This document shows positions 684 through 17,091 of a stretch of DNA of 64,000 nt, piece by piece; the stretch's first letter is position 1, and the number at the start of each line of letters is the position of its first letter. Source of the DNA: Brachybacterium paraconglomeratum (GTDB taxonomy: Bacteria > Actinomycetota > Actinomycetes > Actinomycetales > Dermabacteraceae); the NCBI RefSeq assembly GCF_003994255.1, contig NZ_ML133861.1, forward strand, positions 1 to 64,000, written 5' to 3'. The notes beneath the pieces are model-generated. The model was not told the origin of the DNA and did no database searches. It was given only the letters and a program-made list of their open reading frames with translations. The position numbers were made by a program, and so were the translations under genes.

Positions 684-913
684 TTGCACGGAGTTGGACG
701 CGCTCGTCCGCGCTGAGGACACCAGGTGTGCGCTGGTCGGCACCGCCACCTTCATCAGGGCAAGAGCCCATTGGCTGCGCCTTCGCTGGATCGAACGCCG
801 CGCCGCGATCGCCGGAGGCGTCTTCGCTGCATGCTTCCCGTTGCGTTGCCCGCGCCATGAACAGCCGCGATGGAGGCGCTGGACTTCCGCGTCTTCACCA
901 CCCGCAGAACCAC
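684..913. other. intergenic, nothing recognised
   Basis: Between the IS256 remnant and the terminator of the NlpC/P60 gene I find no open frame with a plausible start and recognisable family content. Several short overlapping frames exist on both strands, as expected for GC-rich DNA. It may be degraded mobile-element sequence. Confidence 0.4.
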
Positions 914-956
914 GAGCGACGTGCAGCCCGTCGTCGAAGGGGACTGCACGTCGCTC
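914..956 (-). terminator. hairpin downstream of the NlpC/P60 gene
   Basis: A perfect 13-bp inverted repeat (arms GAGCGACGTGCAG and CTGCACGTCGCTC) with a 17-base loop lies 14 bases past the stop codon of the minus-strand NlpC/P60 gene. There is no strong T-run, as is common in actinobacteria. Position and stem strength suggest transcription termination. Confidence 0.6.
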
Positions 957-969
957 AGCGCTGTTGGGG

Positions 970-1797
970 TCAGCGGAAGGTGATGAAGGTGGGGTTGCCC
1001 CAGATCGTGCGCTCGGTGACGGCGCCGGGGGATCGACCCGCATCGACGACCTTGTCGCCGCCTGCGTAGATTCCCATGTGGCCGGGCCACACGACGATGT
1101 CGCCTGGCTGGGCCTCGGACTTGGAGATCTGGGTCGCCGCGGCGACCTGCTGGCCGGAGGTGCGGGGGAGGTCGATGCCGACCTGCTTGTAGGCGTACTG
1201 GGTCAGGCCGGAGCAGTCGAAGCTCACGCCCGGCTTGCTCGAGCCCCAGGAGTAGGAGGCGCCGATCTGGGTGCGCGCGGCGTCGACGATCGCCTCACCA
1301 CTGCTGGAGGACGAGGATGCGCCCTGGGTCGGGACGGAGGTGCCTGCGCCGCCGACGGACGCGCCGCCATTGAGTGAGCCGCGGGTTTCGGGGCCTACGA
1401 CGCCGTCGACCTGGAGGCCGTTGTCTCGCTGGTAGTCCTTCACCGCGCCGTGGGTGAGCTTCCCGAACTTGCCGTCCACAGCAAGCGAGGCGCCCTCCTT
1501 GTTCAGCGCGGACTGGAGCTTCTCGACCGAAGATCCCTGGGAGCCCCAGCGGAGCTTCTTCGAGGAATGGAGCGCCTTGGCCGGGGTCGGGGCGGCGGGC
1601 GCAGCAGCCGGCGAGGCCACGGCGGGGGTGGACGCGGGGACAGCAGGGGCTGCCTGGGCGGTGCCGCCAGCGAAGGCGGAGCCGAGCAGCACGGTGCCGA
1701 GGACGGCCGCGCCTCCGGTGCCACGCAGGGCGCGTCCGCTGTGGCGGAGGGGGGTGATTGCGCGGCCAGGCGCGCGGTGGGAATTGCTCGTGGCCAT
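970..1797 (-). CDS. secreted NlpC/P60 endopeptidase with peptidoglycan-binding domain
   Basis: Predicted 275-residue exported cell-wall hydrolase. The N-terminus is arginine-rich, followed by a hydrophobic signal segment and an AQAAPA-type cleavage region, then an Ala/Pro linker. Next is a PG_binding_1-like domain (WGSQGSSVEKLQSALN ... VDGKFGKLT ... VDGVVGPET), a Ser/Gly-rich linker, and a C-terminal NlpC/P60 domain with the catalytic cysteine in FDCSGLTQYAY and the histidine in PGHMGIYAG. NlpC/P60 enzymes usually cut D-iGlu-diaminopimelate bonds in stem peptides. I chose ATG at 1797 because ACGGAGAA precedes it. The frame stays open for 88 more codons upstream, but those residues look non-coding and would bury the signal peptide. 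It is transcribed in the same direction as the thiol/metal operon but is separated from it by about 336 bases. Confidence 0.9.
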   Translation of the reverse strand: MATSNSHRAPGRAITPLRHSGRALRGTGGAAVLGTVLLGSAFAGGTAQAAPAVPASTPAVASPAAAPAAPTPAKALHSSKKLRWGSQGSSVEKLQSALNKEGASLAVDGKFGKLTHGAVKDYQRDNGLQVDGVVGPETRGSLNGGASVGGAGTSVPTQGASSSSSSGEAIVDAARTQIGASYSWGSSKPGVSFDCSGLTQYAYKQVGIDLPRTSGQQVAAATQISKSEAQPGDIVVWPGHMGIYAGGDKVVDAGRSPGAVTERTIWGNPTFITFR

Positions 1798-2133
1798 GAA
1801 TGTTCTCCGTGATGATCCCCGAAATGTTCGGGGAGATTCGGGCATTGGGTCGCGGCAACGCAAAAGCAGTGCAAGTATCGGGAAGAAACTCTCGTACCTC
1901 GTAACCGGTAAGACCAACATACCGACGGGCGCGGGCTTGGGGAACACTCGAGGGAGACCTTGGCTGATGACTTCACCAGTTCTTGAACCGAGGACGCATC
2001 GGCCCGAGTCTCCATACGTTCTCTTTACTTGAGTCCGGCGTCTCGGTGGTGTGTGTGTCACGTCGGTCGTCCGACGCCCGGGCTCTGTACTGCGAAACGT
2101 TCTCGGCAGGTGGCGCCAAAGGCTCCGCGGGGT
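1798..2133 (-). promoter_or_regulatory. long leader/promoter region of the NlpC/P60 gene
   Basis: This 336-base gap separates ccdA from the NlpC/P60 gene. It holds no convincing gene. Two inverted repeats stand out: CCCCGAA/TTCGGGG (1817-1833) just upstream of the ribosome-binding site, and CGTCGG/CCGACG (2061-2076), which could be a weak terminator for the ccdA operon. Leaders of wall-hydrolase genes in actinobacteria often carry c-di-AMP riboswitches, but I could not match the conserved ydaO core here. Confidence 0.4.
1817..1833 (-). promoter_or_regulatory. stem-loop before the NlpC/P60 ribosome-binding site
   Basis: Seven-base perfect arms, CCCCGAA and TTCGGGG, separated by ATG, lie about 20 bases upstream of the minus-strand start at 1797, with the ACGGAGAA Shine-Dalgarno sequence between hairpin and start. 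It could be an operator or a translational or transcript-stability element. No regulator is identified. Confidence 0.4.
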
Positions 2134-2973
2134 TCACACGGCTGGCTGGAACGTGGCGATGGAGCCTTGCAGGTGATCCATCCAGGTGGCCCACGTCCCG
2201 GTGAGAAGAAGGAGTCCGATGGTGATCAACAGCGCGCCGGAGAGAATCCCGAGGAGTCGTCGGTGTCGCGAAAGGGCCCTGCTCACGCCCATCGCCTTGT
2301 CGAGAAGGAGGGCGCTGATCACGAAGGGGATGCCTAGGCCAAGGGAGTACGCGAGAGCTAGGACGGCACCGCGTGTCGCTCCGGAGCCCTCTGCTCCTGA
2401 GTCGAGGGAGAGGGCGATGATCGCGGCGTACGTGGGGCCGATGCACGGGGTCCAGCTGAGCCCGAAGACGAACCCGAGCAGCGGGGCGCCCAGGAGGCCT
2501 GCGTCGGGCCGTCTCTTCGTGACCCGGATGTTCCCTGAAAACCGAGGCAGGGCACCCATGAAAATGATTCCCATGAAGATGACGATGAGGCCGGCGATGC
2601 GGTTGATCCATTCGGCGTGAGCTTGAAGCAGGTATCCCATCGCCCCGGCGAATCCGCCGAGAGCCATGAAAACTACTGTGAATCCCGCAACAAATAGAGC
2701 GCTGCCTCCCAGCATTCGTCCAGTTCCCGCTCGGTAAGCCTCACCTCGAGCGGTTTTCCGGCCAGTACCTGGATCCTTGCGGGGTGATGCAGATATCCCC
2801 GTGTTCTGGCCCGCGAGCCCGGAGACGTAGCCGAGGTAGCCGGGCACGATCGGCAGCACGCACGGTGAGAGGAACGCGATCAGTCCCGCGATCGCCGCCA
2901 CCGCGACTGCCAGCATGAGAGAGCCCGACAGGGCGATCGACTGGAAGGTCTCAGCGAGTCCGCCCCCGCTCAC
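2134..2973 (-). CDS. ccdA: CcdA/DsbD-family transmembrane thiol reductant transporter
   Basis: 279-residue polytopic membrane protein of the CcdA family, which passes reducing equivalents from cytoplasmic thioredoxin to extracytoplasmic TlpA/ResA-type acceptors. The two redox cysteines expected in paired transmembrane helices are present: C38 in LSPCVLP and C177 in WTPCIGP, each in the usual proline/glycine setting. About six hydrophobic helices are visible, with a polar loop near residues 60-85. The start is GTG at 2973, overlapping the TlpA stop codon by 4 bp (GTGA), which implies translational coupling. No cytochrome c maturation genes (ccsA/resB) are adjacent, so here it most likely serves the TlpA protein encoded just upstream. 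It is the last gene of the six-gene metal/thiol operon. Confidence 0.9.
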   Translation of the reverse strand: MSGGGLAETFQSIALSGSLMLAVAVAAIAGLIAFLSPCVLPIVPGYLGYVSGLAGQNTGISASPRKDPGTGRKTARGEAYRAGTGRMLGGSALFVAGFTVVFMALGGFAGAMGYLLQAHAEWINRIAGLIVIFMGIIFMGALPRFSGNIRVTKRRPDAGLLGAPLLGFVFGLSWTPCIGPTYAAIIALSLDSGAEGSGATRGAVLALAYSLGLGIPFVISALLLDKAMGVSRALSRHRRLLGILSGALLITIGLLLLTGTWATWMDHLQGSIATFQPAV

Positions 2974-3569
2974 TCGGCAGCCTCTTCGAGAACGCCGTCG
3001 AGCATCGCACGCAGGATCGAGGGATCGATCGCTCCGGAGATCCGGCCAGCGACCCGTCCATCGTGATCGAGGACGAGGGTCGTGGGGACGGCATTGGGTG
3101 CGACATGTCCACGAAGCTGGTACAGGATCTCGGACTGCTGATCGGGGATTGAGGGGTAGGTGATGCCGTAGTTCTCCTCGAAGGCCTGGGCGGGCCCCGC
3201 CTCGTCGCGGAGGTTGATGCCGATGAATACGACGCCCTGGTCGGTGTACTCCTCATGGATGGCTTGGAGGTCAGGTGCCTCGACCCGGCACGGTGGGCAG
3301 GAGGCATACCATACGTTCACCACGAGCACGTTGCCGAGGTGCTCGATCGAGTCGAACTCGTCGCCGTCGTAGGTGGTCCCGGAGAACTCCACTGGCTCCG
3401 TACGGTCGGCGGGAGCGATCTCTGTGGTGACACCGTTGCCGGAGACGTATCCGGAGTTCTCGGAGTCGTAGCGGTCGCTGGTGTCCTCGCTGCTGCAGGC
3501 CGTGGCCAGGCCGATGGCTGCAGCGAGCCCTGTGGCATGGAGCAGCTGCCGCCGAGAGCGGGAGCGCAT
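2970..3569 (-). CDS. TlpA/ResA-like thioredoxin lipoprotein
   Basis: 199-residue secreted thiol-disulfide protein. The N-terminus (RSRSRRQLL then a hydrophobic stretch) ends in a lipobox, LATAC, with C25 as the predicted lipidated cysteine. The thioredoxin fold follows with the active site WYASCPPC (C91, C94) and a late cis-proline region (NAVPTTLVLD). TlpA-type proteins with CPPC sites generally reduce extracytoplasmic disulfides or metal-oxidised thiols, receiving electrons from CcdA. The following gene is ccdA, overlapping by 4 bp, which supports a functional pair. The gene lies 49 bases downstream of the VKOR gene in the same operon. Confidence 0.9.
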   Translation of the reverse strand: MRSRSRRQLLHATGLAAAIGLATACSSEDTSDRYDSENSGYVSGNGVTTEIAPADRTEPVEFSGTTYDGDEFDSIEHLGNVLVVNVWYASCPPCRVEAPDLQAIHEEYTDQGVVFIGINLRDEAGPAQAFEENYGITYPSIPDQQSEILYQLRGHVAPNAVPTTLVLDHDGRVAGRISGAIDPSILRAMLDGVLEEAAE

Positions 3570-3618
3570 GGACGTACTCCTTCCGGTCGAGGGGGACGGA
3601 CAGATGAGTGGGGAGGGG

Positions 3619-4266
3619 TCAGAGCACCGTGGACCAGTAGTCCCAGAATCTCATTGCAATGAGAGACAAGATCACGAGGTACCAGGCCACGAGCACCGGG
3701 AGCCGGAACTCGATCAGTAGCGAAACGGTTCGACGCGTGACGGGTGCGGCCCCGCGGGTCCAGCGGCGCAGGTGGTGGAGGGTGGTGAACCAGAACAGGG
3801 GGATCGTCACCGCCCACACGACCATGCAGTAGGGGCATAGCGCCCCGATCTCGTACAGGCTCTGGCCGATCAGCCAATGCACGAACAGCATCGCGAACGT
3901 GACACCGACCTGAATGACCACGCTCATCCAGCGCGCCATGCGGGCACCAGCCAGGAAAGCTGTGCCTAGGGCCAAGACGGCGGAGAATCCGGCGATGCCG
4001 AGGATCGGATTGGGAATGCCGAAGGCCGAGGCCTGAGGGGTGGACATCACTGATCCGCAGGACAGGACCGGGTTGAGGCTGCAGGAGGGGACGTAGGCGG
4101 GGTCCTCGATCAGCGCGATCTTCTCGACCAGCAGCACGACGGCCATCACCAGGCCTGTTCCCCCGGTGATCGTGAACAACAGGCCGAGACCGAGGCGCGG
4201 CCGAGTTTCTGCATCGGTCACGATGTCCCCCCGTGACGCCTCTCCGGCGCCAGACGCGGTCGACAC
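3619..4266 (-). CDS. vitamin K epoxide reductase (VKOR) family membrane oxidase
   Basis: Four-helix VKOR-family protein, the actinobacterial counterpart of DsbB, which reoxidises DsbA using quinone. Counting from GTG at 4266, the two loop cysteines are in VPSCSLNPVLSCG (C62, C70) and the CxxC pair is in ALCPYCMVVW (C144, C147). This is the four-cysteine arrangement expected for VKOR. Hydrophobic helices flank these sites, and a further C-terminal helix follows. The start is uncertain. GTG 4266 lies just after the DsbA stop. GTG 4221 has a stronger GGGGGG Shine-Dalgarno sequence. An ATG at 4317 would overlap DsbA heavily. The neighbouring DsbA-like gene is the natural partner. Confidence 0.88.
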   Translation of the reverse strand: MSTASGAGEASRGDIVTDAETRPRLGLGLLFTITGGTGLVMAVVLLVEKIALIEDPAYVPSCSLNPVLSCGSVMSTPQASAFGIPNPILGIAGFSAVLALGTAFLAGARMARWMSVVIQVGVTFAMLFVHWLIGQSLYEIGALCPYCMVVWAVTIPLFWFTTLHHLRRWTRGAAPVTRRTVSLLIEFRLPVLVAWYLVILSLIAMRFWDYWSTVL

Positions 4267-4270
4267 CGCC

Positions 4271-4921
4271 TCAGCCCTCGAGAGCGGTATCGAGAGGGTT
4301 CGTGAGGTCCTCGACACGGGTGGGCTCCAGCGGCTTCCCGTCGACGAAGAACGTGGGGGTGCCGGTCACGCCGAGAGCCTCGGCGTCCGCGGCGCTCTGT
4401 TCAATGCGCTGGGTCGTGGCGGGGTCGTCGTAGACCTGCTCGAACCGCTCCATGTCCAGCCCGATCTCCTCCGCGTAGGAGAAGAAGAGTTCACGCTGGG
4501 ACGTCTCCTGGTGTCCCCACTCGGTAGCATTGTCGAACAGGGCCTTGTACATCGCCTCGAACTCGCCCTGCTCCTTCGCAGCCTCCGCGGCCTGGGCAGC
4601 CTCGACAGAGTTTCCATGCAGTGGCAGGTACCGCACCACAAAGGTGACACGGTCTCCATACTCGGCGCGGAGCTCCTCGACGGTGGGGTACAGGGAAAGG
4701 CATGCTTCGCACTCGAAATCGAGGTACTCCACGAAGACGACGTCGCTGCTTCCCTCCGAGAGTCGGGGGCTGTCCTCTCGAACGAGCTGAGAGGTCGGTG
4801 CATCCGACGCGTCTTCATCCGCTGTCGTGTCGCGCCCGGTGTCGGGGACGATGAGGAATCCCGCGAGCATCAGCGCCGCGACGGCAAGCAGTCCGATGGT
4901 CAGTTTTGTGCTGCGGCGCAT
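4271..4921 (-). CDS. DsbA-like thiol:disulfide oxidoreductase, membrane-anchored
   Basis: 216-residue protein with an N-terminal hydrophobic segment (residues 7-25, signal or anchor) followed by a DsbA-type thioredoxin domain. The active site is DFECEACLSLYP (C71-E-A-C74), and the conserved cis-proline loop is VTGTPTFFVDG near the C-terminus. Such proteins introduce disulfides into exported proteins and are reoxidised by VKOR in actinobacteria. The VKOR gene is immediately downstream. The start overlaps the end of the P-type ATPase gene by 22 bases, so the two are co-transcribed. There is no lipobox. Confidence 0.9.
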   Translation of the reverse strand: MRRSTKLTIGLLAVAALMLAGFLIVPDTGRDTTADEDASDAPTSQLVREDSPRLSEGSSDVVFVEYLDFECEACLSLYPTVEELRAEYGDRVTFVVRYLPLHGNSVEAAQAAEAAKEQGEFEAMYKALFDNATEWGHQETSQRELFFSYAEEIGLDMERFEQVYDDPATTQRIEQSAADAEALGVTGTPTFFVDGKPLEPTRVEDLTNPLDTALEG

Positions 4922-7038
4922 TCGGCGGCCTCTCGGGTGGGGGGCGTCTCGCGGTTATCCTGCCCGGCGCGGCTGGGTGTCCCCTGCGAGTGCACTCCCT
5001 CGGCCCGCGCGGCGCGCATGCCGTTCGCGATGACGACCACCTCGGCCACCTCGTGCACAAGCACCACGGCAGCGAGTCCCAGCACTCCGAAGAGGGCCAG
5101 CGGGAACAGCACCACGATGATCGCCAGCGCGAGGCCGATGTTCCCCGTCATGATGCGACGTCCCCGACGAGCATGGGCCAAGGCTGCGGGGAGCTGGCGC
5201 AGGTCCGTGCCGGTGAACGCGACGTCGGCCGACTCCACCGCAGCGGCCGTCCCGGTCACTCCCATGGCGATGCCGACGCTTGCTGAAGCGAGCGCGGGAG
5301 CATCATTGATGCCGTCGCCGATCATCGCGGTTGGGCTCTGTGCGGTCAGATGGCGGATATGGGAGGCCTTATCGGTGGGCAGCTGCTCTGCGTGGACCTC
5401 GTCGATCCCGGCTTCTGCGGCGATCGCCCGGGCCGTCAGCTCATTGTCGCCGGTGAGCATCACGGTGCGGATCCCCTGGGCGTGCAGGGCGGCAACGGCC
5501 TCGGCCGCATCAGCGCGCAACTCGTCGCGGATCCCGATCGCGCCGATCACCTGGGAGTCCTCCTCGACCATGACCACGCTCATGCCCTGGGAGGCCATGT
5601 CTCGAGTCTGGTCCCCGAGAGCACCTGGGGTGATCCAGCGAGGACTTCCCGCGCGCACCACGCCTCCCCGGATCGTGCCGGTGATGCCGTGACCGGGAAT
5701 CTCCTGGACGTCGTCGGCCTGCACCGACGAACCGGAAGCGGCAGTGAGGATTGCGGTGGCCAGCGGGTGGGTGCTGACGGACTCAAGTGCCGCGGCGATT
5801 GCGAGAACATCAAGATCGCTGTGCCCCTCGGTGACGGCGACATCCACTACGCACGGCTGGTTGCGGGTGAGGGTGCCTGTCTTGTCCAGGGCCACGGTGC
5901 GGATCGTGCCGAGCTGCTCGAAAGCGGCGCCGGACTTGATGACCACACCGAGCTTGCTGGCAGAGCCGATCGAGGAAATGACGGTCACCGGGACGGCGAT
6001 CGCGAGAGCGCAGGGAGAAGCGGCCACCAGCACCACCAGAGCGCGTTCGACCCAGGTCATCGGATCACCTGTGACGACGCCGACGAGGGCGACGAGCACG
6101 GCGACCACGAGCACCGTGGGAACCAGGGGCCGAGCGATGCGGTCGGCGAGGCGTGCCCGCTCGCCCTTGGCGGCGTGGGCCTGGTCGACCAGGCGCACGA
6201 TCTGGGTGAGGGAGTTGTCGCGTCCGTCTGCCGTGGCCCGTAGCGAGATCGAGCCGGAGCCGTTCACGGAGCCGGCATGAACTTCATCCCCGGGCCCCAC
6301 CTCGACGGGGATGGATTCCCCAGTGATCGCCGAGGTGTCCACCCATGAGCGACCGGTCTCGACAACGCCGTCAGTGGCCACGCGATCGCCGGCACCCAGC
6401 AGGAGCACATCCCCGGCGCTGACCTCTGCGGCGGGAACGGTCCGAGGCCCGTCGGGCCGCCGGACCCGGGCGGTCTCCGGCATCAGGGCGAGCAACGCGC
6501 GGAGACCCTGCTTCGCACGGTCCATCGAACGGTCCTCGAGCGCCTCGGCCAGGGAGAACAGGAACGCGAGAGCCGCCGCCTCACCGACGTGACCGAGCAG
6601 CACAGCCCCGCTTGCAGCGATCGTCATCAGCAGACCCACACCAAGCCGGCCCCGGCCGCGACCCTGCACAAGGCGCCGCAACGTGCCGGGCACGAACGTC
6701 CAGGCCCCGGCAAGGAGGGCCAGGACATGCACGACCAGGGCCGCCAGCTCGAAGTTCGCCCAGTCGATTAGCAGACCGGCGACCCACAGGACCCCGGCAG
6801 TAACGGGAAGCAGAAGGGAGCGGTCGCGCCACCAAGGCGTCGAACGCTCTACCTCAAGCGGCTCGCCGATTGGTGCCGGGGCAGTGCTCCCACAGCACGC
6901 ATCCCCGTCCTCCGCTGGTTGCGACGCCGTTGCGGGGCCGCAGCAGGGTTCCCCATCGGGGGCCGGAGGTGGTGAGAAAGCAAGCGGAGTCCGGGTAGTA
7001 GCAGCGGGACGGGCGGGGCCGCAGCACTCATCGCTCAT
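4900..7038 (-). CDS. heavy-metal P1B-type ATPase (CmtA/CtpG-like)
   Basis: 712-residue metal-exporting P-type ATPase. Core motifs are TGES (239-242), the transmembrane SPC metal site (341-343), the phosphorylated aspartate D385 in DKTGTL, GDGINDAPAL in the hinge, and VLVHEVAE in the last helices. The SPC signature replaces the CPC of copper pumps and is typical of the P1B-4-like Co/Zn/Cd group. There is no HMA domain. The N-terminal tail instead has three Cys-Cys motifs (C5-C6, C32-C33, C48-C49, each followed by glycine) in a Pro/Ala-rich segment, probably soft-metal ligands. It overlaps the CmtR-type regulator upstream by 4 bp and DsbA downstream by 22 bp. By analogy with CmtR-CtpG of Mycobacterium tuberculosis, the likely substrate is Cd(II) and/or Pb(II). 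Substrate is inferred. Confidence 0.9.
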   Translation of the reverse strand: MSDECCGPARPAATTRTPLAFSPPPAPDGEPCCGPATASQPAEDGDACCGSTAPAPIGEPLEVERSTPWWRDRSLLLPVTAGVLWVAGLLIDWANFELAALVVHVLALLAGAWTFVPGTLRRLVQGRGRGRLGVGLLMTIAASGAVLLGHVGEAAALAFLFSLAEALEDRSMDRAKQGLRALLALMPETARVRRPDGPRTVPAAEVSAGDVLLLGAGDRVATDGVVETGRSWVDTSAITGESIPVEVGPGDEVHAGSVNGSGSISLRATADGRDNSLTQIVRLVDQAHAAKGERARLADRIARPLVPTVLVVAVLVALVGVVTGDPMTWVERALVVLVAASPCALAIAVPVTVISSIGSASKLGVVIKSGAAFEQLGTIRTVALDKTGTLTRNQPCVVDVAVTEGHSDLDVLAIAAALESVSTHPLATAILTAASGSSVQADDVQEIPGHGITGTIRGGVVRAGSPRWITPGALGDQTRDMASQGMSVVMVEEDSQVIGAIGIRDELRADAAEAVAALHAQGIRTVMLTGDNELTARAIAAEAGIDEVHAEQLPTDKASHIRHLTAQSPTAMIGDGINDAPALASASVGIAMGVTGTAAAVESADVAFTGTDLRQLPAALAHARRGRRIMTGNIGLALAIIVVLFPLALFGVLGLAAVVLVHEVAEVVVIANGMRAARAEGVHSQGTPSRAGQDNRETPPTREAAECAAAQN

Positions 7039-7412
7039 CTGGCGATCTCCTCAGCGGCGGGGATAGGGGAGTTGCAGCACAGAGGGACGTCACAGTCCGA
7101 GTCGGTGCAAGGGGCGCCGTCGTCGACGGCGAGCACGGTCTCGACCAGCGCGGAAAGCGCCCGGGAGAGGTGCCCATCGGCGATCTCGTAGCGGGTGCGC
7201 CGACCCTCAGGTGTCGCCACCACGATCCCGCATCCACGCAGGCAGGAGAGGTGATTGGAGACGTTCGTGCGGCTCAGCGACAGCTCATCGGCGAGGGCTG
7301 CTGGATAGCTCGGACGATCGAGAAGAGAGAGCAGGATGCGCGATCTCGTGGGGTCGGCCATGGCGCGGCCAAGCCGATTCATCACATCGAGCTGCGTAGC
7401 TATAGTCAGCAT
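7035..7412 (-). CDS. cmtR: CmtR-type ArsR/SmtB metal-sensing repressor
   Basis: 125-residue winged-helix repressor. From ATG at 7412 the ligand residues fall exactly where M. tuberculosis CmtR has them: C57 and C61 in NHLSCLRGCG in the recognition-helix region, and C102 in the C-terminal tail (GAPC). These are the known Cd(II)/Pb(II) ligands. The tail here carries extra cysteines (C107, C112, C113) not in the classical set. The start was chosen by alignment to the CmtR N-terminus (MLT...LGRAMADPTR); longer upstream frames lack homology. It is the first gene of the six-gene operon and overlaps the ATPase start by 4 bp. A leaderless promoter with a palindromic site over the start suggests autorepression relieved by metal. 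Confidence 0.92.
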   Translation of the reverse strand: MLTIATQLDVMNRLGRAMADPTRSRILLSLLDRPSYPAALADELSLSRTNVSNHLSCLRGCGIVVATPEGRRTRYEIADGHLSRALSALVETVLAVDDGAPCTDSDCDVPLCCNSPIPAAEEIAR

Positions 7413-7458
7413 GCGGTGACCATACAGTGTGCAGTGACCAGTCAGCAAGCGATGACCA
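7401..7458 (-). promoter_or_regulatory. cmtR promoter/operator region
   Basis: On the minus strand a -35 TTGCTG (7443-7448) and -10 TATGGT (7419-7424) are 18 bases apart. The -10 ends 6 bases before the ATG, so the transcript should be leaderless. An imperfect 24-bp palindrome (7401-7424), with outer TAT/ATA and inner GTCA/TGAC arms, covers the -10 and start codon. On the plus strand three TGACCA-containing octamers lie at 7415, 7433 and 7451, exactly 18 bases apart. A second compact palindrome, TGAC-CA-GTCA, is at 7435-7444. These are candidate CmtR sites. Confidence 0.6.
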
Positions 7459-7619
7459 GTAGTGGCGACCTCTCTCCCCGCCGCCGCAGTTCTCATGTAG
7501 ATGGCCGTGTTGCTGCAGCCCTCTAGCTTGGCCGGGCGATTCTCAGGATGAGCACGGTACACCGCGGCGGGTTACTCGCATGAATGATCGGATCTGGTGG
7601 AGTGGTCTAGTGCCCTTCC

Positions 7620-9893
7620 TTACCTTCGTGTCGGCCGGAGTGAGGTGACGTTCTGGAGTCGGAGGCTGTTGTGGACCACGAAGACGGAGGAGAGGGACAT
7701 TGCAGCGGCAGCGATCAGGGGGTTCAGCAGACCGGCGGCGGCGATCGGGATGGCCGCGATGTTGTAGGCGAAGGCCCAGATCAGGTTGGTGCGGATGGTG
7801 CGGTGGGTGGCGCGGGCGAGGGTGATGGCGTCGGCGATCGAGTAGAGATCATCCCGGACGAGGATGATGTCGGCCGACTTCAGGGCGACGTCGGTGCCGG
7901 TGACGATCCCGAGCCCGAGGTCGGCGGCCGCGAGGGCGGGAGCGTCGTTGATGCCGTCGCCGACCATGGCGACCCGGTGCCCCTCGTCCTGGAGCTGCTC
8001 GATCACGGCGACCTTCTCCGTGGGGAGGACGCCGGCACGGACTTCCGGGATCCCGAGAGAGTCGGCGACCCGCTCGGCGGCTGCCGGAGTGTCTCCCGTC
8101 AGCAGTACAGTTCGCAGCCCGAGCTCGTGCAGCGCGGCGACGGCCTCCGCGGCGTCCTCCTTCATCACGTCGGAGAGCGTGATCACCCCGATCGCCTCCG
8201 TGCCCCGTGCGACCAGCGCGGTGGAGTGCCCTGCCCTTTCGGCATCTGCGACGGTCTGCGCCAGCGCTTCGCCGACGTGGGCGCCGAGCTCGCGCAGGAA
8301 GGCCCGGCTGCCGACAGCGATGCTCTCCCCGTCGATCGTGGCGCTAATCCCGTGGCCGGGGGAAACGATGTGATCGGTAGCTGTCGGGATGTCGGCGACC
8401 ATGGTCGCGGCGCGGGTGCGGAGTGCTTCGGCGACGGCATGTTCGGAAGCCGCTTCGACGCCGGCAGCCAGGCGCATGAGCTGCTCTGCGGTGACCCCGT
8501 CTGCATGGATGCTGACGACGCGCGGGGCGCCGAGCGTGAGGGTTCCGGTCTTGTCCAGGACGACGGTGGTGACCTTGCCGCTGGCTTCCAGCGCGTCCTG
8601 TCCCTTGACCAGGACCCCAAGCAGCGCGCCGCGCCCGACGCCGACCATGAGCGCGGTAGGGGTGGCGAGGCCGAGGGCGCAGGGACAGGCGATGATCAGC
8701 ACGCTGATCCCGTTGGTCACCGCAGTGGACACGTCAGCGCCGGCGAGGAGCCAGGCGAGTGCGACGAGCACGGTGAGGATGAGGACGACGGGGACGAACA
8801 CGCGCACCACCGCGTCGACGAGGTGCTGGACCTGGGCCTTGCGGATCTGCGCTTGCTCTGCGATCGCGGCCATCTGCGCGAGCTGTGTGTGGGCACCCAC
8901 TCGAGTCGCCTCGAGGGCGAGGATCCCGTCCGTGGACACGGAGCCGCCGATGACCTCGTCGCCCGGACCGACCGTGCGGTGGAGGGATTCTCCGGTCATG
9001 GCGCCCGTGTCGAGGGAGGCGGTGCCCTCGATGACCCGGCCGTCGGCGGCGATCGTCTCGCCGGGGCGTACGAGCACGATGTCGCCGGTGCGGAGCTCCT
9101 CGACCGGCACCATCGTCTCGACCCCGTCTCGTCGGCGGCGGGCCTCTCGTGCCCCGAGGGCGGACAGCGCGCTGAGCACGTCGCCGGCGCGGCGCCGGCT
9201 GCGGGTCTCGAAGTAGCGGCCTGCGAGCTGGAAGGTCGTCAGTCCCGCGGCGACGTCGAGGTACAGGGCGTTGGCGCCGTCGGGGACCTCTCCGATGCCG
9301 AGCCACACGCCGTCGCTGGGCTCGATCCCGGCGATCATCGCGACGAGGGCCCAGCCGAACGAGGTGACGATGCCGAGGGAGACCAGGGTGTCCATGCTGA
9401 CGGAGCGGTTCTGCAGGTTCCGCCAGGCGGCCCGGTGGAAGGGCCAGGCCGCCCACGTGACCACGGGGACCGCGAGGAGGACGCACAGCAGCTCCCAGCC
9501 GGGGAACCGCCACTGCTCCACGAGTGCGAGGGCGATGGTGAGGTCCATCAGCGGAACGGTGAGCAAAGCTGCGGTGATGAGCCTGCGCCGCAGGGTCACG
9601 ATGCGATTCTCGTTGGCGCGGCGCGACCACTCGTCGTCCTGGTCGTCGTGCTCGGCCGCGTCGTAGCCGGCGCCGCGGATGACCTCGACCGCCTGAGCCG
9701 GGGAGGCGATGCCCGTGACGACGGCGCGCTCGGTGGCGTAGTTGACGGTGGCGCTGACGCCGTCGAGCTTGTTGAGCTTCCGCTCGATGCGGTTCGCGCA
9801 CGCCGCGCAGGTCATCCCGGAGATGTCGAAGGTGTACCGCTCCTCCAGGGAGAGGGCTGGCGGGGCGGCCAGGGCGGTGGGGGTGTGGTTCAT
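7620..9893 (-). CDS. copA: copper-translocating P1B-1 ATPase CopA
   Basis: 757-residue Cu(I) exporter. It has one N-terminal heavy-metal-associated domain with GMTCAAC (C29, C32), a basic/acidic linker, then the P-type core: TGES (300-303), the intramembrane CPC (403-405) in IIACPCALGLA, D447 in DKTGTLTL, an HP-locus region (EAASEHAVAEAL) and GDGINDAPAL. The CPC plus HMA combination assigns it to copper rather than to Cd/Co like the neighbouring ATPase. ATG at 9893 overlaps the stop of the CopD-CtaG gene by 4 bp, so the two form a translationally coupled unit. In-frame codons continue far upstream but belong to an unrelated frame of that gene. Confidence 0.95.
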   Translation of the reverse strand: MNHTPTALAAPPALSLEERYTFDISGMTCAACANRIERKLNKLDGVSATVNYATERAVVTGIASPAQAVEVIRGAGYDAAEHDDQDDEWSRRANENRIVTLRRRLITAALLTVPLMDLTIALALVEQWRFPGWELLCVLLAVPVVTWAAWPFHRAAWRNLQNRSVSMDTLVSLGIVTSFGWALVAMIAGIEPSDGVWLGIGEVPDGANALYLDVAAGLTTFQLAGRYFETRSRRRAGDVLSALSALGAREARRRRDGVETMVPVEELRTGDIVLVRPGETIAADGRVIEGTASLDTGAMTGESLHRTVGPGDEVIGGSVSTDGILALEATRVGAHTQLAQMAAIAEQAQIRKAQVQHLVDAVVRVFVPVVLILTVLVALAWLLAGADVSTAVTNGISVLIIACPCALGLATPTALMVGVGRGALLGVLVKGQDALEASGKVTTVVLDKTGTLTLGAPRVVSIHADGVTAEQLMRLAAGVEAASEHAVAEALRTRAATMVADIPTATDHIVSPGHGISATIDGESIAVGSRAFLRELGAHVGEALAQTVADAERAGHSTALVARGTEAIGVITLSDVMKEDAAEAVAALHELGLRTVLLTGDTPAAAERVADSLGIPEVRAGVLPTEKVAVIEQLQDEGHRVAMVGDGINDAPALAAADLGLGIVTGTDVALKSADIILVRDDLYSIADAITLARATHRTIRTNLIWAFAYNIAAIPIAAAGLLNPLIAAAAMSLSSVFVVHNSLRLQNVTSLRPTRR

Positions 9894-11824
9894 CGTGTGC
9901 GCTCCCTGTCCGAGAGTTTCTTGAGCATGTCGTTGTAGGCGTCGAACTCGGTGTCCAGGCCGCGGTCGAGGTGCCGATCCCGTCGGCGGGCCTCCTTGTC
10001 GTCCTGACGCGCCCATTGGATGCACAGTGCGACGATTGCGATGATCAGAGGGATCTCCCCGCCTGCCCAGGCCACCGCGCCTGCTGTCTGCTGGGAGCGC
10101 TCGAGGTCCGCCCAGGGCAGAGCCAGAGATCGGTAGTAGTTCTCTGCGAACAACGAAGGGGCCGAGATGATCGCGACGCCGAAGAAGGCGTGGAAGGGCA
10201 TCGCAGCGAAGGTGTAGCCGAGCTTCCCGATGTGCGGCAGGGGCCGCGGGGGACGGTCCACGCCGATGATCAGGCTGTAGTACGCGTACCCCGTGGCCAG
10301 GAAGTGGAGGTTCATCAGCTGGTGTGCCCAGTGAACACTCATCATCGTCTCGAACAGGGGGGTGAAGTACAGGCCGTAGTAGGAGCCGATGAAGATAATG
10401 AACACGAACGCCGGGTGGTACAGGACGCGCAGCAGTCGCCAGTGCAGGATCTGCGTCACCCAGGAGTGCACGCCCGCCCGCCGTCGATCCACGCGCGCGG
10501 TACGCAGGACCAGAGTGATCACCCCGCCCTGGACCAGGAGGATCGGAGCGAGCATGGACAGGCTCATATGCACCACCATGTGCACGCCGAAGTCCGGGGC
10601 GGAGTACTTCCCGAACCCGGAGCTCGTGGCCGCGAGGACGACCAGCCAGCCGCCGCACCACAACAGCACGCGGCTGATCGGCCAGCTCGTGCCGCGCCGG
10701 CGCAGGGCGATCACCATCGCGAGATAGAACGCGATACCGGCGACCGCGAGGACGGCGAACAGCAGGTTGAGCCGCCACGTGCTCATCAGCGTCCCGAGGG
10801 TTGGCGCATCCGGGACTTCGAACCCCATGAACACCTGCGGGATGCTCGTGGGCACGAAGTACTGCGGCGGCGGAATGCGAGTCATCGCCGCACCGATCGC
10901 CACCCACATGATGATCAGCAGGGCCGGGACCGCCATCCTGTGCACGCTCCGGCGCTGCATGACCACGAGCGCCACTATGAGCGCGACCAGCAGCGCCAAA
11001 CGCACTAGAGCGAGGACACCGGTCACTGAGCCCCAAGGGGTGGTGCCGGCGAGCTTGAACCACGTCACCACCAGCTCCGTCACAAGCACGACAGCCGCCC
11101 CCACCAAGCCCATGCGGGAAACGCGTCCCACTAACAGGGGCAGCCGTCCACCCTCGTCATGACGGATGACCTGCAATGCCGCAGTGACGAGGATCGGGCC
11201 CAGCAACACCCCACCCGCGATGACCTGAAGTGCACCAGCATCTCCACCGATGTCGTGGTCCGGGCCGACGAGGATCTGCCCCACCACCACCGGCGCCAAT
11301 GCGCCGACGATTCCCGCCCACAGACCCGGCAGCAGCGTTGTCCAGCGTGTACCCCAGTAGGAGCACAGCCACAGGACCAGGGCCCCGACCAGTGTGACGG
11401 TCCATGCCCGGGGCATGTAGCCGAACATGTAGAGCGGCCCAAACGATCCCGGCTCCAAGAGACGGCCCATCCCGAGGCCGTTGGACTCGGGCGCCGAGAC
11501 GATCACGTTCGCCGCCGCCAGTACGACCCACGCGCCCGAAGCCCAGGTAAGGAGGGTCAGGTCGGGGCCGAACCGCACACTGCTTGCCGAGCGGATAGAG
11601 CGCGGATGCAGAAACAGCACCGCGACGACGGCGCCCAGGGAGACCAGTGCTGCGAGATCGGCGGCGCCACGCAGACCTGCAGCTACCACGGCTGTCCCGA
11701 GCCCGGGGAACTCCCGGTGTATGTCCTCATAGACGGCCGGGCCGCTGAGCAGGTTCGCTGCCACCGCGGGTAGCGCCGCTAGGAGGAGCGAGCCCACCGC
11801 CAGGAGTACTACTCTCTGCTTCAC
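9890..11824 (-). CDS. CopD-CtaG fusion: copper resistance / cytochrome oxidase assembly membrane protein
   Basis: 644-residue polytopic membrane protein joining two families. Roughly residues 1-320 resemble CopD (copper import/resistance, multiple helices). Roughly residues 340-640 resemble the CtaG/caa3 assembly family (HMVVHMSLSMLAPILLVQGG, MMSVHWAHQLMNLHFLATGYAYY, GAVAWAGGEIPLI), rich in membrane His and Met residues suited to Cu. This fusion is common in actinobacteria and probably moves Cu for resistance or oxidase metallation. The start is GTG at 11824, preceded by GGTGAG. A BlaI-type box and -10-like TAGATT immediately upstream suggest a nearly leaderless, repressor-controlled transcript. 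It is the first gene of an operon with copA. Confidence 0.88.
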   Translation of the reverse strand: MKQRVVLLAVGSLLLAALPAVAANLLSGPAVYEDIHREFPGLGTAVVAAGLRGAADLAALVSLGAVVAVLFLHPRSIRSASSVRFGPDLTLLTWASGAWVVLAAANVIVSAPESNGLGMGRLLEPGSFGPLYMFGYMPRAWTVTLVGALVLWLCSYWGTRWTTLLPGLWAGIVGALAPVVVGQILVGPDHDIGGDAGALQVIAGGVLLGPILVTAALQVIRHDEGGRLPLLVGRVSRMGLVGAAVVLVTELVVTWFKLAGTTPWGSVTGVLALVRLALLVALIVALVVMQRRSVHRMAVPALLIIMWVAIGAAMTRIPPPQYFVPTSIPQVFMGFEVPDAPTLGTLMSTWRLNLLFAVLAVAGIAFYLAMVIALRRRGTSWPISRVLLWCGGWLVVLAATSSGFGKYSAPDFGVHMVVHMSLSMLAPILLVQGGVITLVLRTARVDRRRAGVHSWVTQILHWRLLRVLYHPAFVFIIFIGSYYGLYFTPLFETMMSVHWAHQLMNLHFLATGYAYYSLIIGVDRPPRPLPHIGKLGYTFAAMPFHAFFGVAIISAPSLFAENYYRSLALPWADLERSQQTAGAVAWAGGEIPLIIAIVALCIQWARQDDKEARRRDRHLDRGLDTEFDAYNDMLKKLSDRERTR

Positions 11825-15775: not shown

Positions 15776-15829
15776 GGGTCATCGCGGGACCTCCCAAATC
15801 GACCAAGAAATAGGGACCCGCGATGACCC
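15776..15829 (+). promoter_or_regulatory. hairpin covering the transposase start codon
   Basis: Perfect 13-base arms GGGTCATCGCGGG (15776-15788) and CCCGCGATGACCC (15817-15829) flank a 28-base loop. The right arm contains the ATG of the transposase. A transcript entering from outside would fold and hide the start, whereas one initiated inside the left arm would not. Such protection from read-through is known in IS10 and IS50; here it is inferred. Confidence 0.55.
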
Positions 15830-17091
15830 ACCACCAGTCTGCACTCTCGACCCTCGTCAGTGAACTGCTCCAGGACCCCGACCTCGCTCATGAGGAGCTG
15901 TTCCGCCGGCTTCTCCAGGCCGGACTCCAGGACCTCATCGATGCCGAAGCGTCCGTCAAGATCGGTGCGGAGCGTTACGAACGTTCCCCGTCCCGCTCGA
16001 CCCGTCGCAATGGCACCAGGGCAAAGCGCCTGGCTACCCCGGCGGGAGAGCTGGATCTGGCGATCCCGAAGCTAAGGGCCGGCTCGTTTTATCCCGCGCT
16101 GCTGCATCCTCGTCGCCGGGTCGACAAAGCGCTCTGGGCGGTGATCTGCACGGCCTGGATCGACGGCGTCTCCACCAGGAAGGCCGAGGACCTCGTGCGG
16201 GCGCTGGGCAACGAGTCCGGGATCAGCAAGTCCCAGGTCTCGAGGATCTGCGGCGAGATCGACGAGGTCGTCGCGGAGTTCCTCCACCGCCGCCTGGACC
16301 ACACTTGGTTCCCCTACTTGTTCCTGGACGCGACCTATCTCGACATCCGCCAGGGCGGCCGGGTCGTCTCCCAAGCCGTCGTCGTCGCCACGGGCGTGGC
16401 CGCGACCGGTCACCGAGAAGTGCTCGGGATGGCGATCGGTGACGCGGAGACCACCGGCTTCTGGACCGAGTTCCTCCGCAGCCTGCGCGAACGCGGGTTG
16501 AGGGTCTCCACCCCCGCCGCACCGGAAGGCGTGCTGCTGGTGACCAGTGACGCGCACGCGGGGCTGAAGCATGCGATCAAGGCAGTGCTTCCGGGAGCGT
16601 CATGGCAGCGCTGCCGGGTCCACTTCGCACGCAACATCACCCAGGCGCTCGGCTCGGCGCGCTCCAAGCCCGTCAACGCCCTGGTCTCCACGATCTTCGC
16701 CCAGACCAGCCCGGAAACGGTCCGCGAGGCCTATCAGCAGGTCACGGCCTCACTCGAGGCCTCCTTCCCGAAGATCGCGGCCATGCTCAAGGACGCCGAG
16801 GCAGACCTGACCGCATTCGCGGCGTTCCCCATCGAGCACTGGCGAAAGATCTGGTCGAACAACCCCATCGAGCGGGTGAACAGGGAGATCAAGCGCCGAG
16901 CAGACGTCGTCCAGATCTTCCCGAACCGGGACTCTGCGACCAGACTCGTCGGCGCAGTCCTCCAGGACCAGCACGAGGAATGGCAATACGGCGAACGCCG
17001 CTACATCAGCGACATCTCCCTACGCCGACTCGCCGACATGCTCACCAACGACACCCCCGAGACCACCAGCCGGCTCCTCATGACCGCCTGA
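15823..17091 (+). CDS. IS256-family transposase
   Basis: 422-residue DDE transposase of the mutator/IS256 family, full length for the family. The catalytic residues are visible: D169 in LFLDATYLDIR, D243 in VTSDAHAGLKHAI, and the glutamate in the IWSNNPIERVNREIKRR block (E350 or E355). The WQRCRVHFARN motif lies between the second aspartate and the glutamate. The N-terminus shows the usual conserved PRRNGTRAKRL-like DNA-binding region (TRRNGTRAKRL). The start is ATG at 15823, inside a hairpin arm. No disruptions are seen, so it is potentially active. Confidence 0.95.
   Translation: MTHHQSALSTLVSELLQDPDLAHEELFRRLLQAGLQDLIDAEASVKIGAERYERSPSRSTRRNGTRAKRLATPAGELDLAIPKLRAGSFYPALLHPRRRVDKALWAVICTAWIDGVSTRKAEDLVRALGNESGISKSQVSRICGEIDEVVAEFLHRRLDHTWFPYLFLDATYLDIRQGGRVVSQAVVVATGVAATGHREVLGMAIGDAETTGFWTEFLRSLRERGLRVSTPAAPEGVLLVTSDAHAGLKHAIKAVLPGASWQRCRVHFARNITQALGSARSKPVNALVSTIFAQTSPETVREAYQQVTASLEASFPKIAAMLKDAEADLTAFAAFPIEHWRKIWSNNPIERVNREIKRRADVVQIFPNRDSATRLVGAVLQDQHEEWQYGERRYISDISLRRLADMLTNDTPETTSRLLMTA

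Follow-up and report, generated by a model that had tools for sequence, protein, structure and literature searches.

A putative Cd/Pb-efflux operon with a candidate envelope thiol-protection module in Brachybacterium paraconglomeratum

Within the first 64,000 nucleotides of contig NZ_ML133861.1 of B. paraconglomeratum (the window, meaning the whole stretch of DNA that was analyzed), six minus-strand genes running from 7412 to 2134 encode, in order, CmtR, a P1B-type ATPase, DsbA, VKOR, TlpA, and CcdA in intact reading frames. Judging from these sequences and their relatives, we lean toward reading the locus as a Cd/Pb-efflux operon with an envelope thiol-protection module whose reducing arm was recruited locally. 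The gene content, the overlapping frames, the presence of one operator, and the repeated assembly of the set argue for one functional unit.

Gene identities and the CmtR-type operator

A preliminary description of this DNA had placed six genes with overlaps or short gaps on one strand at 2134-7412, and the five junctions indeed consist of three overlaps (4, 22, and 4 nt) and two 49-nt gaps. The genes, their control site, and nearby features are as follows.

7401..7425, minus strand: CmtR operator dyad, overlapping the CmtR start codon (matrix score, 22.2 bits)
7035..7412, minus strand: CmtR, an ArsR/SmtB sensor of the Cd(II)/Pb(II) type (NCBIfam CmtR equivalog NF047906, 168.8 bits versus a cut-off of 150)
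4900..7038, minus strand: P1B-type heavy-metal ATPase, CtpG/CadA-like (TIGR01512, 494.3 bits versus 313.5; 4-nt overlap with CmtR)
4271..4921, minus strand: DsbA-like thiol oxidoreductase with an N-terminal hydrophobic anchor, CEAC active site, and TP loop (22-nt overlap with the ATPase gene)
3619..4221, minus strand: VKOR-type thiol oxidase, GTG start (PF07884, 139.1 bits, E = 1.3e-40; 49-nt gap after DsbA)
2970..3569, minus strand: TlpA/ResA-like thiol reductase, probable lipoprotein, CPPC active site (49-nt gap after VKOR)
2134..2973, minus strand: CcdA/DsbD-type transmembrane electron carrier, GTG start (PF02683 [DsbD_TM], 32.7 versus 27.1 bits; 4-nt overlap with TlpA)
970..1797, minus strand: secreted NlpC/P60 peptidase with a peptidoglycan-binding domain (PF00877 and PF01471; 336-nt gap after CcdA)
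15823-17091: IS256 transposase (family match)
129-683: partial IS256 transposase (below the family cut-off)

The six gene identities proposed earlier were borne out by Pfam and NCBIfam profiles together with retained cysteines. CmtR aligned without gaps to residues 1-103 of 2jsc; it carries the motif HLSCLRGCG and a cysteine at position 102, and its cysteines 57, 61, and 102, which we take to be the Cd/Pb-sensing ligands, match those of 2jsc. The ATPase has an SPC motif (ASPCA) and three N-terminal CC motifs, and its best PDB match was 7qbz, a cadmium translocating P-type ATPase.

The four redox proteins all retain their active-site cysteines, and these residues and the family assignments uphold the earlier division into an oxidizing pair (DsbA-VKOR) and a reducing pair (TlpA-CcdA). 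DsbA scored above the Pfam cut-offs of Thioredoxin_4 (PF13462) and DSBA (PF01323), and its C71, C74, T188, and P189 were invariant in an alignment of 19 sequences. Its PDB matches were of the DsbA type and also of the Scs type, and its structure model had a mean pLDDT of 84.4, with residues 1 to 38 low. VKOR keeps both cysteine pairs (CSLNPVLSC and CPYC), and among PDB sequences it matched VKOR weakly (E = 2e-5); its start was chosen by a G-rich upstream stretch, and a longer frame from an upstream GTG is also possible. TlpA exceeded the Pfam cut-offs of AhpC-TSA/Redoxin (PF00578/PF08534) and fell under the NCBIfam cut-offs for TlpA (51.4 versus 230 bits) and ResA (62 versus 170 bits); its lipobox was judged by eye. 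The 279-residue CcdA matches DsbD_TM alone, with membrane cysteines in PCVLP and TPCIGP.

A dyad over the start codon was common to CmtR upstream regions (186 genes, 134 of them non-identical): ATAGT-N13-ACTAT occurred in 51 of the 134 non-identical regions, and spacing shorter by one base was found in 15 with ATAGT and 6 with ATGGT. When the window was scanned with a symmetrized matrix built from 114 sites of the two spacings mixed, 7401-7425 was the sole site of at least 8 bits in the 64 kb (the best of five shuffles reached 10.1 bits). The operator pattern was found twice in the 3.78-Mb genome, each time at a CmtR start, and the reversed control gave 0. These results agree with the earlier proposal of control by a single Cd/Pb sensor, in that there is one CmtR-type operator and no second in the window. 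The first CmtR codons run through the right half of the operator, so that only the left half escapes constraint from coding. The same matrix found no site of at least 11 bits in the related Janibacter locus (L014) or its metagenome-assembled counterpart (L023), and the site at L022 scored just 12.9 bits. Scans of 900-7800 gave no sigma-70-type promoter (0.5 expected) and three terminators (1.8 expected), and an Rfam scan of positions 1-24000 of the window returned no match.

Immediately upstream, at 7620-11824 and in the same orientation, are genes for a CopA-like ATPase and a CtaG-type protein, from which read-through into CmtR is possible. Downstream of CcdA, the NlpC/P60 gene is the seventh gene in all eight intact Brachybacterium loci; in the window it perhaps belongs to a transcript separate from the operon. 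The genome's second CmtR (L059:7249-8294, G000:C3) has its own operator and adjoins a Cad-family cadmium transporter gene.

What CmtR senses bears on a different explanation, which we consider very improbable: that its main signal is oxidant or zinc stress and that the genes serve as an operon against redox stress, exporting zinc as well. The three cysteines with presumed roles in Cd/Pb sensing are retained, and the genome's other CmtR adjoins the cadmium transporter gene just mentioned, both of which speak against it. On its side, H2O2 lowers DNA binding of Mycobacterium bovis CmtR, according to the accessible part of one report (PMC7863910), and the accessible part of another has CtpG acting on zinc, with other work in conflict (PMC13043812).

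Distribution and arrangement of the gene set

CmtR scored above its family cut-off in 117 of the 396 genomes of the order. Among the matches listed, the ATPase is present in 69 of 140 CmtR-centered loci; any of DsbA, VKOR, TlpA, and CcdA accompanies it in 12 of the 69, and all four do in 5; several of the 140 share one genome, some end at contig ends, and the HMM thresholds for locus gene content were set by eye from score lists. The six-gene set is thus a minority variant of CmtR-ATPase loci. The earlier suggestion of a dedicated set therefore stands only in part: the set recurs beyond one genome, but it is not general, as 57 of the 69 CmtR-ATPase loci among the matches listed have no thiol gene within the fetched stretch. 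These 57 loci also imply that the thiol genes are not needed for efflux.

Of the 396 genomes, 48 encode an operon-like VKOR (E ≤ 1e-45); within the window's genus the figure is 8 of 27. In 30 VKOR loci of ~3.5 kb each, DsbA was found in 25 and the ATPase in only 11, so the DsbA-VKOR pair also exists without a nearby pump. Some CcdA match was obtained in all 38 genus genomes searched; operon-class CcdA (77 to 84% identity, window included) covered the query in nine of the 38, one of which (G222) has an internal stop, and G199 holds an operon-class CcdA fragment.

With the window's VKOR as the query, 18 loci were recovered from the named genome collection. DsbA adjoins VKOR in 16 of these, CmtR and the ATPase are also present in 9, and in one further locus the ATPase lies where the contig ends. 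The full colinear order was found in eight Brachybacterium loci (the window, L009 [apparently on the same contig as L238], L010, L012, L136, L165, L236, and L237), in Janibacter L014, and in the near-identical L023, which shows the same identities to the window as L014, such that the two are not independent. At L213 (G286), the order is ATPase-DsbA-VKOR-TlpA-CcdA, and the locus ends before any CmtR.

Other loci carry the same families in different layouts. In the Brevibacterium-type loci L174, L177, and L101, CmtR-ATPase-DsbA-VKOR is accompanied by a divergent TlpA-CcdA pair that reads away from the intergenic stretch with the CmtR operator; in L101, a Cad-family transporter gene sits between the ATPase and DsbA genes. 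In Corynebacterium glyciniphilum (L015), CmtR-ATPase-TlpA-CcdA runs in one direction and CtaG-DsbA-VKOR in the opposite one, the latter reading away from the intergenic stretch with the CmtR operator. L022 and L024 have CmtR-ATPase-DsbA-VKOR, with the oxidizing pair only, and L220 has the order DsbA-VKOR-CmtR-ATPase. The preliminary description would have counted an absence of this gene order from other genomes as refutation; it was not refuted on that score, as the order recurs in Brachybacterium and Janibacter and is rearranged in Brevibacterium and C. glyciniphilum. The recurrence in other genera and the lone strong operator match point to an arrangement beyond chance. A search for near-identity to plasmids gave three partial matches only.

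Several further loci were observed. L235 (G222) is a decayed copy in which DsbA and VKOR are readable and TlpA and CcdA are broken, without CmtR or the ATPase within 9 kb. In Dietzia, relatives of DsbA-VKOR lie near MerA, PCuAC, and a Dyp-type peroxidase at L016, and by eye also at L017 (near MerA) and L018, all without an operon-type CmtR; judging by the neighbors at L016, the association of DsbA-VKOR with metal loci is broader than its association with CmtR. In Nesterenkonia (L020:8543-11917), VKOR is located beside genes for a CsoR-like repressor and rhodanese-like proteins, by eye a persulfide-type operon. Genes resembling the SCO6881 family, below the family cut-off, lie near the L022 and L024 sets in Aeromicrobium and Nostocoides (L022:1997-3289 and L024:1890-3203) and may point to conjugative elements.

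These surroundings bear on the idea that the thiol genes hitchhike, with metal islands gathering envelope-stress genes that share mobility and not one pathway, an idea that we regard as improbable. The operon has a low GC3 (0.794, against 0.962 in eight of the window's chromosomal genes), and the IS256 transposase at 15823-17091, the partial one at 129-683, the SCO6881-family-like genes near L022 and L024, and the occurrence of the DsbA-VKOR pair without the ATPase would all fit. Hitchhiking sits poorly, however, with the overlapping reading frames, with the recurrence of the same families around a CmtR operator in several layouts, and with the repeated addition of TlpA-CcdA described below.

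Origins of the oxidizing and reducing arms

The window's CcdA shares 71% identity with the host's ResB-linked CcdA at C4 and 57% with the other host copy. In G286, the operon CcdA has 86% identity to the genome's own ResB-linked CcdA, versus 45% (a partial match) to the window's CcdA. In Brevibacterium, the operon CcdA reaches 56 to 57% identity to the ResB-linked CcdA proteins of the genus, versus 49 to 52% to the copies of the window's genome (G000), over most of the length; since this margin is small, its recruitment rests on the tree. In the CcdA tree, each operon group joins the ResB-linked CcdA of its own lineage (support, 100/99, 97/96, and 100/98). A single clade of the 13 operon CcdA rows, a group chosen after the identities had been seen and with L015 left out, was rejected (p-AU = 4e-62). 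The groups of the TlpA tree match those of the CcdA tree, with household TlpA coming from one of the three lineages only.

Given that operon CcdA groups with each lineage's own cytochrome-c CcdA, the reducing arm was probably added independently in three lineages from each host's cytochrome-c pair; gene conversion could mimic such recruitment. The probable independent origins of the reducing arm are a new finding of the present analysis. That part of the thiol machinery was seemingly added separately in different families suggests that the parts work together.

Each of the 12 genomes that were searched has a single ResB match, located beside the household CcdA and not the operon CcdA. The only ResB match of the window's genome is at C4:41836-43272, beside its household CcdA. 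A plain cytochrome-c locus was ruled out on the grounds that the genome's ResB lies elsewhere (G000:C4).

The ancestry of CcdA also allows a narrower role, which we judge rather unlikely. TlpA-CcdA would be a metal-induced spare for cytochrome-c maturation: with the household pair blocked by exported metal, it would keep the cysteines of apocytochrome CXXCH motifs reduced so that the one ResB-CcsA ligase can use them, and DsbA-VKOR would serve general folding. The grouping of operon CcdA with the lineage's own cytochrome-c CcdA in three lineages favors such a role, as does the single ResB by the household CcdA in each genome searched, which the spare pair would serve in trans. However, the operon lacks both ResB and CcsA, and descent from a cytochrome pair is no proof of the same client. 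Moreover, a third TlpA-CcdA pair in the genome (G000:C13) is part of a copper cluster that also holds a paralogous NlpC/P60 gene and a multicopper oxidase, which suggests a wider use; CopA-like ATPases, an HMA protein, and a DUF326 protein of the copper-storage kind (under the Csp1 cut-off) are encoded there as well. The cysteine peptidase NlpC/P60 is twice linked to TlpA-CcdA (window, 970-1797; L058:894-1769; L190:13654-14535).

For the oxidizing arm, the identities run the other way. Between the operon VKOR and the host's second VKOR the identity is 37%, and the operon DsbA shares 39% and 34% with two other host DsbA-like proteins. Since the genome holds a second VKOR, two more DsbA-like proteins, and two more CcdA proteins, the operon copies are extras. 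The VKORs of L013, L014, L015, L022, and L024 are 57 to 63% identical to that of the window. The oxidizing arm probably arrived together with the efflux genes. Of the inner branches, 12 of 22 in the VKOR tree and 10 of 21 in the DsbA tree are left open, mostly between genera, so a single origin of the oxidizing arm is likely at most.

Relation to known systems and proposed function

The nearest relative of the operon is cmtR-pacL2-ctpG of Mycobacterium tuberculosis, and the nearest analogue is Scs. The operon is best called a variant of the cmtR-P1B-ATPase resistance operon that would work partly like Scs, and not a Scs member. The preliminary description knew of no named system with this exact set; none was met in the literature as far as its accessible portions go, although Scs is a clear functional precedent. 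In the accessible part of its description, cmtR-pacL2-ctpG raises Cd tolerance and likewise joins a CmtR-type sensor and a Cd-family P1B-ATPase in one operon, whereas an APC motif is named for CtpG, in contrast to SPC here, and the four thiol-redox genes are an addition of the Brachybacterium operon (PMC13043812). PacL is absent at the Brachybacterium locus, where the 4-nt overlap of the CmtR and ATPase genes leaves no room for it between them and the remaining genes of the operon fall into different families.

Scs (ScsABCD of Salmonella, Proteus, and Caulobacter) is likewise a metal-linked locus for thiol oxidoreductases of the envelope, in which the DsbD-like electron carrier ScsB has ScsC as its CXXC partner (PMC8900818, PMC3672137). 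Unlike the Brachybacterium operon, the four Scs members, as described in the accessible portions of these papers, include neither VKOR nor an efflux ATPase, and the metal is copper rather than Cd/Pb (PMC8900818, PMC3672137). ScsB is described there as a three-domain protein, whereas the operon CcdA is the membrane part alone and so falls outside Scs. System II cytochrome-c maturation (ResA/CcdA/ResB/CcsA) shares the pairing of a TlpA/ResA-like protein with CcdA, as well as the origin of the CcdA sequence, but has ResB, which is lacking at the operon. The mycobacterial DsbA-VKOR disulfide pathway likewise pairs a membrane-anchored DsbA with VKOR. In contrast to that pathway, the Brachybacterium pair is placed in a metal operon, and its VKOR and DsbA are far from the host's other copies (37%; 39% and 34%).

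In the reading that we favor, that of Cd/Pb efflux with thiol protection in the envelope, Cd or Pb (possibly Zn or an oxidant) would release CmtR, and the ATPase would move metal from the cytosol to the cell-wall space, where free cysteines would be attacked. DsbA would rapidly close cysteine pairs in newly exported proteins so that they do not bind metal, and VKOR and quinone would reoxidize DsbA. CcdA would pass electrons from the inside to TlpA, which would reopen wrong disulfides and keep needed cysteines reduced, whether single catalytic ones (such as that of the NlpC/P60 neighbor) or those of heme-binding CXXCH motifs. Consistent with such a division of labor, the accessible part of a study of disulfide introduction reports that cadmium binds free protein thiols and that cells deficient in disulfide introduction are extremely cadmium sensitive, although single mutants were only slightly and the double mutant strongly Cd sensitive (PMC7089426). 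This sensitivity of disulfide-poor cells makes the oxidizing arm a natural partner of Cd export. The part played by the reducing arm is less evident. As this arm appears to derive from cytochrome-c pairs, cytochrome-c cysteines are a good candidate client; NlpC/P60 and misoxidized proteins are others.

We put forward a fuller version only tentatively, as possible rather than probable. One metal-driven transcript would combine efflux with both opposing thiol pathways, having been built repeatedly from a mobile CmtR-ATPase-DsbA-VKOR cassette and a locally copied cytochrome-c TlpA-CcdA pair; disulfides would be closed and reopened, and cytochrome-c cysteines would be kept reduced, during Cd/Pb export.

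Metal resistance has mostly been described as the removal of metal from the cytosol. The locus described here suggests that some Gram-positive bacteria place a thiol oxidase and a thiol reductase behind the efflux sensor and so handle damage outside as well. Should the repeated addition of the reducing arm hold true, it would constitute a natural experiment and would make the targets of soft metals in the actinobacterial envelope testable, namely, folding, cytochrome c, and peptidase cysteines.
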